From Terriglobia bacterium (GTDB lineage Bacteria > Acidobacteriota > Terriglobia > Terriglobales > Acidobacteriaceae), in NCBI GenBank assembly GCA_032252755.1, contig JAVUPY010000053.1, positions 1-64,000 of the forward strand: a DNA stretch of 64,000 nt. The letters run 5' to 3'. Of the stretch, positions 50,079 to 51,790 are shown in pieces. Below the pieces are notes generated by a model. It had not been told where the DNA came from. It made no database searches and saw only the letters and a list, made by a program, of their open reading frames with translations. Position 1 is the stretch's first letter. The number at the start of each line of letters is the position of its first letter. A program made the translations under genes and the position numbers.

Positions 50079-50732
50079 ATGTCTAACGCCAAGGATACCC
50101 ACGATCGCGCGCGCAATCGCGCCAGGCAGATCAAACTCGTCCTGCTCGATGTGGACGGTGTGATGACCGATGGCACCATTTTCCTGTTTCCCGCTCCCGC
50201 GGGCGCACAGCAACCGCTGCGGCAGCATACGGAAACTCGTGCCGGCGATGGCGGTTTTGCCATTGCGTCGGACGCGGTGATTGAGGCGAAGGGGTTCCAC
50301 GCGCATGACGGAACGGCGATGTCGCTGGCACACAATGCCGGTCTTAAGATCGGCATAATTACCAAGCGCATTTCGGAGACCGTGCGGTTGCGCGCACGCG
50401 ATCTCAAGCTGGATTACGTGTATCAGGGAGCGCACGACAAACTTTCGGTCCTGCAGGAGATTCTTGAGAAACAAGGAATCAGAGCGGAAGAGGTTGCATA
50501 CGTTGGCGACGATATTATCGATCTGCCGGTGATGCGCGCTGTCGGACTGGCCATCGCGGTTGCAAACGCACGCGAAGACGTGAAAGACGAATCACATGTC
50601 ATCACCGATCATCGCGGCGGAGAGGGAGCCGTGCGCGATGCCATTGAGTTCATTCTCAAAGCGCAAGGGAAGTACGAGGCAGCCATCGCCGAATACATCC
50701 AGCAGAGGACGCCCTCACCCAGGGAAGGCTAA
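50079..50732 (+). CDS. kdsC: 3-deoxy-D-manno-octulosonate-8-phosphate phosphatase KdsC
   Basis: HAD phosphatase that frees Kdo from Kdo-8-phosphate. 217 residues. LLDVDGVMTDG is motif I. IITKRISE stands where E. coli has the ITGR-type motif II. GDDIIDLPVM is motif IV and GGEGAVRDAIEFIL the tetramer tail. Residues about 37-66 (FLFPAPAGAQQPLRQHT onward) are an insert compared with the usual ~180-residue enzyme, placed before the FHAHDGTAM substrate loop. kdsD, the isomerase two steps earlier, is at 60.5 kb. Confidence 0.92.
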   Translation: MSNAKDTHDRARNRARQIKLVLLDVDGVMTDGTIFLFPAPAGAQQPLRQHTETRAGDGGFAIASDAVIEAKGFHAHDGTAMSLAHNAGLKIGIITKRISETVRLRARDLKLDYVYQGAHDKLSVLQEILEKQGIRAEEVAYVGDDIIDLPVMRAVGLAIAVANAREDVKDESHVITDHRGGEGAVRDAIEFILKAQGKYEAAIAEYIQQRTPSPREG

Positions 50733-50767
50733 GTCTTTTCCCTGCCGAAGATCTTTATTTTGAGCAA

Positions 50768-50799
50768 AAAAAGTCCCTCCGGTTACAGGAACCGGAGGG
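50768..50799 (-). terminator. Rho-independent terminator (minus strand)
   Basis: Perfect 10-bp stem CCCTCCGGTT (50775-50784)/AACCGGAGGG (50790-50799) with a 5-base loop. On the minus strand it is followed by ACTTTTTTT. It starts directly after the stop of the 32-codon gene. Confidence 0.9.
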
Positions 50800-50898
50800 T
50801 CACCGTTTCCCCTGAACAACGAGTCCGTTTTCAGGAGGCTCTACCCGGTTAGACACGTTCCACCCAAAAAAGTTGCGTCGAAATTCATCGTGGGACAT
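50800..50898 (-). CDS. Candidate small protein gene, 32 codons
   Basis: An uninterrupted frame from ATG 50898 to TGA 50802-50800 encodes 32 residues: MSHDEFRRNFFGWNVSN then RVEPPENGLVVQGKR. It is hydrophilic with an aromatic centre (NFFGW) and has no membrane segment. Its limits fit a discrete unit: promoter-like TTGACG/TACAAT 27 bases upstream, transcript start expected near 50917, and a perfect terminator touching the stop codon. No Shine-Dalgarno is seen. The same stretch also folds (CCTGAAAACG pairs with CGTTGTTCAGG, bulged G), so a small RNA of about 150 bases is an alternative. No relative recognised. Confidence 0.45.
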   Translation of the reverse strand: MSHDEFRRNFFGWNVSNRVEPPENGLVVQGKR

Positions 50899-50924
50899 GG
50901 CAAATTCGTGCCGAATGTGAAGGA

Positions 50925-50952
50925 ATTGTAAGAAGAACGTAATTATCGTCAA
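50925..50952 (-). promoter_or_regulatory. Sigma-70-like promoter for the 32-codon gene/sRNA
   Basis: Minus strand TTGACG (50952-50947), 16-base spacer, TACAAT (50930-50925). It lies inside the 284-base kdsC-TPR gap and points to the terminator at 50768. Confidence 0.6.
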
Positions 50953-51016: not shown

Positions 51017-51790
51017 TTAGTTTGGAATGGCTGGCGGCTTGTTCTCCATCAGTTGTAAGAACCGTGGATCGTTCCGAACCGCAGCAAATACCTGGTCCTT
51101 GTAGAGGGGATCCAATTCGCTGTACCCGTTCTCAAGCGCGGTCCGTATCTGGGTGATTGCGTGATCCACATCGCCGACCTTGGCGTACAACCTGGCCAGC
51201 ATGAAGGCGTACTTGGCTCGTTCTTCTGGGCGGCTTACGCGACCGATCAACCCGGTCGTGGAACTTCGTTCAAAAACCCCTGGATCGAGTTGCAGGGCCA
51301 GCAAGTACTCGTTCATCGCCAGCGCGACTTTTTTTTGCGCGAAGTAAACGGATCCGAGGTTGGAGTGGAACGAAGCGGAGTCGCGGAGCGCGAGTGCTTC
51401 CTTATAGCGGCTTATAGCTTTGCGGTAGTCGCCGAGGATGTAATACACGACGCCGAGGTTGTTGAAAGCATCGGCGTAGTCTTTCCTAAGTTTGGTGGCG
51501 CGCTCGAAGTCCATGCGCGCGCTGTTGAACCGACTGGAACGCTCAAAACCTTGCGCACCCGAGCCGATCACCAATTCGGTCATTCCGAGTTTGTTCCATA
51601 AGACCGCGTTCTTCGGAGCTTTGTGAAGGGCGTCCTTGTACAGATTAGCTGCGGCAACGTAGTCTTTCTGGGATCGGAGTGCGTCCGCGCGCGACTCCAT
51701 CCCAGTTGGAGTTGAATCCGCGTTCTGCTGCCCAATTGCAGGGATTACAGAGAGAACCAGTGCAAGCAGTAGTGGGGCCTTGAATCGCAA
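51017..51790 (-). CDS. Exported TPR-repeat protein, downstream paralogue
   Basis: 257 residues from a TTG at 51790 with GGAAGGA upstream. Signal peptide to about AIGQ, then several TPR-like repeats (DALRSQKDYVAAANLYKDAL, ADAFNNLGVVYYILGDYRKA, FHSNLGSVYFAQKKVALAMN). The C-terminal segment (NGYSELDPLYKDQVFAAVRN then LENKPPAIPN-like) is also present, altered, in the gene immediately upstream, so the two arose by tandem duplication. Likely periplasmic protein-protein interaction role; partner unknown. Confidence 0.85.
   Translation of the reverse strand: MRFKAPLLLALVLSVIPAIGQQNADSTPTGMESRADALRSQKDYVAAANLYKDALHKAPKNAVLWNKLGMTELVIGSGAQGFERSSRFNSARMDFERATKLRKDYADAFNNLGVVYYILGDYRKAISRYKEALALRDSASFHSNLGSVYFAQKKVALAMNEYLLALQLDPGVFERSSTTGLIGRVSRPEERAKYAFMLARLYAKVGDVDHAITQIRTALENGYSELDPLYKDQVFAAVRNDPRFLQLMENKPPAIPN

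Follow-up and report, generated by a model that had tools for sequence, protein, structure and literature searches.

The gap between the kdsC-like gene and the TPR protein gene of the window (the whole 64,000-nucleotide stretch of DNA that was analysed) holds what sequence comparison indicates is a conserved RNA gene with a terminator structure and a readable promoter class. Taken as a whole, the locus is best explained as a stand-alone, trans-acting small RNA (sRNA) of ~77 nt that would be ECF-sigma-dependent and would pair with mRNAs, a reading that we consider likely. A first-pass annotation of this DNA had proposed either an independent 32-codon gene or an sRNA, and its notion of an independent unit, with the sRNA as the alternative, is supported by a conserved RNA core, the terminator and a promoter-like block of its own. 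The unit itself is real, and it looks like an RNA gene rather than a small-protein gene. The RNA 5' end (~50842) was placed from the promoter position and the onset of conservation, and in relatives the RNA is up to ~100 nt long. The features of the locus are the following.

50766..50842, minus strand: predicted small RNA gene, ~77 nt; the only place with cross-genus DNA conservation, with RNA model matches and covariation
50849..50876, minus strand: predicted ECF-sigma-type promoter, GCAACTT-N15-GTCTAA; 11/13 consensus positions
50809..50837, minus strand: hairpin 1, CUCCUGAA paired with UUCAGGGG, the 5' arm anti-Shine-Dalgarno-like; from the fold, with 5 core pairs in 25/25 rows
50800..50812, minus strand: linker GGRGAAACGGURR, nearly invariant in the alignments, its RR completing a stop triplet in the window
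50766..50799, minus strand: intrinsic terminator, 10-bp stem and U7; from shuffles and from two-sided changes in 8/13 stem pairs over 25 rows
51017..51790, minus strand: TPR protein gene (ORF), directly upstream on the same strand; related gene in 53/64 instances
50079..50732, plus strand: kdsC-like gene (ORF), convergent; convergent relative in 49/64 instances
50800..50898, minus strand: 32-codon frame of the first-pass annotation, judged a non-gene from start, phase and substitution evidence
50925..50952, minus strand: sigma-70-like hexamers of the same annotation, judged chance from shuffles and from their place outside the conserved block

The minus strand does contain the letters on which the annotation had relied: TTGACG (50952) and TACAAT (ending at 50925) with 16 nt between them, a frame of 32 codons from ATG 50898 to the stop TGA at 50802-50800, a stem of 10 bp that encloses a 5-nt loop (50799-50775) and is followed by seven T (50772-50766), and a second stem-loop inside the frame at 50837-50809. 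Its argument that so complete a unit is unlikely by chance holds for the terminator, since a perfect 10-bp stem with a T run arises in 1 of 2000 shuffles of the gap, and does not hold for the hexamers and the frame, which are at background level: sigma-70 hexamers are observed once against a mean of 0.7 in shuffles, and dinucleotide shuffles of the 284-base gap give an ATG frame of at least 32 codons, on either strand, in 805 of 2000 cases. The two-hairpin fold of the RNA has a z of −2.58 relative to shuffles, 2 of 200 being equally good. Stop and terminator are in contact because AAACGGURR, a conserved part of the RNA that leads into the stem, contains a stop triplet by coincidence. As a sigma-70 promoter, the hexamers at 50952 were rejected, given their background frequency and their position outside the conserved block, and the ~150-base transcript proposed to start from them is at odds with a conservation that spans only ~50842 to the T run.

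This conservation was seen with the whole 284-base gap as query against 100 genomes, the genome of the window included. The best relative was G021 (query 175-251, 86%, E 4.7e-18), followed by G030 (query 175-224, 90%, E 7.5e-12) and G045 (query 203-254, E 2.4e-4); weaker matches in G026, G015 and G054 had E values of 0.004-0.014, a range in which matches elsewhere in the gap, taken as chance, also fall (0.005-0.008, e.g., G053 and G014). The clear matches are confined to the 3' part of the gap, and the stretch upstream, which includes the sigma-70 hexamers and the codons for the N-terminal half, lies outside the matches except for the one in G054 (query 140-224). All six genomes share one layout, CCTCCTG...GGGGAAACGGTG and then a terminator whose stem sequence differs.

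A wider set of 64 instances was defined as distinct sequences (identical ones collapsed) from loci L002-L116, the window copy (L032) included, that match CTCCTG-N8..24-GGRGAAACGG; diverged copies such as L199, L204, L205, L216, L218 and L219 fall outside it, and counts over the 64 refer to relatives that are not independent of each other. Among 398 genomes of the taxonomic family, a covariance model of the RNA core (R1) had matches at E<=0.1 in 166, the weaker ones being partly chance, and at E<=3e-5 in 70 of these. Twenty further loci were considered, 11 of them already in the set, and 8 of the other 9 appear to carry the RNA or a diverged copy, the exception being L217. At the level of the class, a full-length model (R2) found at least 17 of 399 genomes (own included) at E<=0.001, a lower bound because the search scored the 10 best first-look candidates for the genomes listed; all of them belong to the taxonomic family of the window, which makes up 110 of 399 genomes in a class draw of the same size. 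A degenerate pattern run over 84,980 species genomes returned 56 stretches, of which 56/56 were titled Acidobacteriota (as Acidobacteriaceae, Acidobacteriales, Terriglobia, Terriglobales or Candidatus Sulfotelmatobacter), so that on this pattern scan the RNA family appears to be found in Acidobacteriota only. A DNA search found no second copy of the RNA in the genome of the window. Two of the diverged copies deserve mention in their own right: L216 is a second, promoterless-looking copy in G010, which also has a normal one, and L219 (G027) is a remote member that keeps mainly the terminator loop.

Across the 64 instances the RNA starts with a 5' segment up to and including CUCCUG; next comes hairpin 1, in which CUCCU and AGGRG form the closing pairs, and after it the linker (broken in a few diverged members) and the terminator. 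The terminator loop of most relatives carries a conserved C-rich GACCCGAGCACGCCCCAAGCA or a close form; the loop is short in the window, G021, G030, G045 and G191, and the window is thus without the long C-rich loop. Covariation was assessed on 25 of the 64 instances, hand-picked for diversity. Over these rows 94.1% of cells are paired in the whole structure, as against 85.4% in shuffles and 36-53% when the structure is slid, and 44 cells are changed on both sides, as against 13.1 in shuffles, with 0 of 500 reaching as high. All two-sided changes lie in the terminator stem, in 8 of its 13 pairs. Hairpin 1 keeps its 5 core pairs intact in 25/25 rows and varies only between U-A and U-G; two-sided changes were looked for there and none was seen in the 25 rows. 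A kissing pair GGGU/ACCC between the two loops was considered and set aside, having no covariation support and a score reached by 159 of 500 shuffles. The terminator-loop motif was also met outside the family (L226, L227 and L239), with no such RNA around the three matches, which were taken as chance. A stand-alone gene, an intrinsic terminator, conserved single-stranded segments and the lack of a conserved frame are what is expected of a trans-acting, base-pairing sRNA of the Hfq type, and all are seen here. We regard the RNA as a conserved sRNA family that is new but belongs to a kind already known.

Because the instances were collected by the RNA core only, the sequence before them serves as an independent test of the promoter. 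A -10-like GTYTAA is located 8-14 nt before CTCCTG, and a -35-like GGAACTT or GCAACTT 14-15 nt above the -10 in 61/64, the pattern being GCAACTT-15-GTCTAA in the window and mostly GGAACTT-14-GTTTAA elsewhere. A promoter score of at least 9/13 is reached by 62/64 instances as compared to 7.3% of dinucleotide shuffles, and one of at least 11/13, the score of the window copy, by 43/64 as compared to 0.16%. The GGAACTT/GTYTAA pattern is that of RpoE-kind ECF sigma promoters, and the assignment to the ECF (sigma-E-like) class is supported at the level of sequence. The predicted promoter sits inside the 32-codon frame. Outside the set, L198, L199, L201, L204 and L205 have AACTT ~35 nt before the RNA in 5/5, with a poor -10 in two. 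A clear ECF promoter is absent from L003 (G030), L004 (G045) and L062 and, by eye, from L214, L215 and L216, and is partial in L219 and L223. A tandem TTTAC-N5-TTTAC-type repeat before the -35 occurs in 42/64 instances as compared to 5/6400 in shuffles (L046-L114, e.g., L050, L067 and L104); it resembles an OmpR/CpxR-type direct repeat, presumably a response-regulator site.

As to how the RNA might act, expression, sigma dependence, base-pairing and targets are inferred. RNA polymerase with a sigma-E-like ECF factor would make the RNA under envelope or other stress, and the RNA, possibly assisted by a divergent Hfq-like protein, would base-pair through its C-rich parts: the CUCCUG arm at its 5' end and, for the majority of relatives, also the terminator loop CACGCCCCAAGC. 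Pairing at the ribosome-binding regions of mRNAs would lower translation, with mRNAs for abundant proteins of the outer membrane as the most plausible targets. Part of the 5' seed is buried in hairpin 1. For an assistant of this kind the genome of the window offers one Hfq-like ORF (L193:1459-1857; G000:C52:61623-61775), a divergent one with an Sm2-like NLLIYKPSIK that scores 25.4 bits, below the family cut-off of 61.7.

A small target test used 30 outer-membrane-type genes of two genomes, drawn from 118 CarboxypepD_reg matches (64 in G000 and 54 in G006) with script-picked start codons. The mean z was −0.57 (s.e. 0.21), −0.22 (0.27) and −0.19 (0.32) by segment, which amounts to no convincing excess and hints only faintly, if at all, at anti-Shine-Dalgarno pairing, and since the test is weak, the mechanism leans on analogy with the sigma-E sRNAs. 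One gene of the test, L260, carries ACCGTTTCC, complementary to the linker. Many of the CarboxypepD_reg matches in these two genomes are in frames of ~1000-1300 residues, and they probably represent a large repertoire of outer-membrane receptors.

The RNA could alternatively titrate or bind a protein without pairing to any mRNA, which we consider unlikely. In favour of such a role, the unpaired linker GAAACGGU is strongly conserved, and so is the 21-nt terminator loop, about all that is left in the remote L219. A CsrA-type sponge is improbable by eye: each RNA carries between 1 and 4 GGA triplets (39 of the 63 distinct RNAs have two), and in the folds these lie mostly in stems. A similarly low probability is given to the view that the conserved sequence is no more than the TPR operon's terminator and 3' untranslated region, and that no separate RNA is made. 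A relative of the TPR gene does lie upstream on the same strand in 53/64 instances, and the terminator can end a TPR transcript; conservation, however, extends beyond the terminator and is accompanied by a promoter-like block at a near-fixed distance, neither of which a plain terminator needs, and the RNA is kept in L004 behind what reads as a transporter-like gene, L004 being itself one of the loci without a clear ECF promoter. A stand-alone sRNA may still, in addition, terminate the TPR transcript. One frame of the neighbourhood reads, from its translation, like a penicillin-binding protein.

A relative of kdsC lies opposite, in convergent orientation, in 49/64 instances, which invites the idea of a cis-antisense RNA to the kdsC transcript. 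In these 49 the start of the core is 91-771 nt from the end of the kdsC match and the RNA runs for ~70-95 nt, so that it would rarely reach the kdsC coding sequence, and antisense action would not need the conserved loops; we regard this idea as very improbable.

Least probable of all, and close to being dismissed, is a protein product, either the 32-residue protein (alone or from a dual-function RNA) or a conserved frame of 6 codons. The window has the 32-codon frame in complete form, and the two nearest relatives keep it open, its translation being matched at 62% over residues 7-32 in G021 (E 2.2e-4) and at 60% in G030 (E 0.01), but neither relative has a start codon; in the 97 genomes besides these two and the window's own, the best match to the 32 residues had an E of only 0.0135. 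An ATG frame of at least 20 codons in the proposed phase is present in 6/64 instances, the window included, with N-terminal parts that are unrelated, and a frame with any start codon in that phase in 16/64. The distance from CTCCTG to the end of the linker is 35 nt in 52/64 and 33 or 34 nt in 12/64, and a core of the shorter lengths shifts the phase. The last 13 codons of the window, G021 and G030 differ by three substitutions, and in the synonymous-versus-nonsynonymous comparison that the first-pass annotation had suggested, limited to these three, all are amino-acid-changing; through one of them, CAG to CGG, a U-A pair in hairpin 1 becomes U-G. The proposed phase is open for 20 codons in 46/64 instances and each of the other two in 2/64, a difference that comes from stops inside the RNA core, present by phase in 6, 62 and 60 of the 64. 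Ahead of the core the proposed phase (counted with the common core length) is open in 51 instances and the others in 46 and 21, and there it has no advantage in openness. The outcome comes close to the one that the first-pass annotation itself had named as speaking against a protein, conservation that keeps to the RNA and loses the frame, and the 32-codon frame is most likely an accident of sequence.

The shorter frame, GTG AGT AAG GRG AAA CGG and a stop, is intact in 55/64 instances, and a stop triplet follows AAACGG in 60/64, counts to be read with the fact that part of the set was collected with the pattern GGTRRMC, which favours a stop at this point. This frame was rejected as well, being absent from the RNA type of the window and broken in 12 of the 13 members outside the set.

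The closest known likeness is to the enterobacterial sigma-E sRNAs MicA, RybB and MicL, which are also short, end in a terminator and have an ECF promoter of the GGAACTT/TCTxA type. MicL sits at the 3' end of another gene, as the RNA of the window does behind the TPR gene. These sRNAs belong to another phylum, however, and share no Rfam family with the RNA of the window at gathering scores, and the sigma dependence in the window is a predicted one. FoxI and FoxJ of Fusobacterium nucleatum are described as ECF sigma-dependent sRNAs with C-stretch seeds (PMC11005410), so that RNA arms of this sort do occur in a distant phylum; FoxJ had earlier been misannotated as the untranslated region of another gene. 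Their organism is unrelated, and whereas sigma-E dependence and target repression were demonstrated for FoxI and FoxJ (PMC11005410), both are conjectural for the window RNA.

At gathering scores, Rfam 15 gave no match in the window, nor in the 20 loci apart from tRNA. The best sub-threshold match was RF02837 anti-hemB of Burkholderia (50838-50766, 16.2 bits, E 0.2), an identity that was rejected as chance, the score being far below the gathering score of 49.5. Two candidate noncoding RNAs of Acidobacteria have been described, Acido-1 (RF01686) and Acido-Lenti-1 (RF01687) (PMC2864571), neither of which was matched at gathering scores, be it in the window or in the 20 loci. A table in one review gives 4 distinct annotated sRNAs for Acidobacteria as against 345 for Proteobacteria (PMC9029176). 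In the open-licence literature we found no description of an ECF-dependent sRNA in Acidobacteria, no title on an acidobacterial sRNA with Hfq, and nothing on a small RNA of Sulfotelmatobacter. A conserved RNA whose promoter class can be read gives access to stress regulation in a soil phylum that is abundant and hard to grow, and the family offers a test of whether ECF responses gain RNA arms repeatedly in evolution. A more tentative proposal, to which we give somewhat less than even credence, is that the RNA provides Acidobacteriota with the noncoding arm of a sigma-E-like (ECF) stress response, an arm that arose independently of those in Proteobacteria and Fusobacteriota, with the tandem TTTAC box (42/64) as a second, response-regulator input and the C-rich terminator loop as a seed inside the terminator hairpin.

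Candidates for the sigma factor itself were sought among the 25 sigma-70 region-2 matches of the genome of the window. The exact pattern GGAACTT-N13..16-GTYTA occurs three times in its 5.39 Mb, as compared to five times for a control pattern, and one of the three (GGAACTT-N16-GTCTA) lies just upstream of the ECF gene G000:C73. This gene has orthologs in 25/25 relatives checked, and GGAAC-N18-GTCTA is found upstream in 24/26 copies of its type, L149 having a variant and L168 none in the sequence examined. The spacer is 16 in the putative own promoter of the C73 gene as compared to 14-15 in the sRNA promoter. A second ECF family (L122, which is G000:C67, and L171-L192) has GCAACTTTC...GGGGTT near the start in many genomes. 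Since the C73 and C67 genes both have related motifs and the C73 spacer departs from that of the sRNA, we chose no cognate sigma factor. Ten ECF proteins were scanned, all of which pass the general sigma70-ECF cut-off, with only L120 passing an equivalog cut-off among the matches listed. In many C67 orthologs the opening codons of the matched frame contain GCAACTTTC-N-GGGGTT, and a candidate later start follows directly; this gene may have a mis-set start, and its mRNA may be leaderless and autoregulated.
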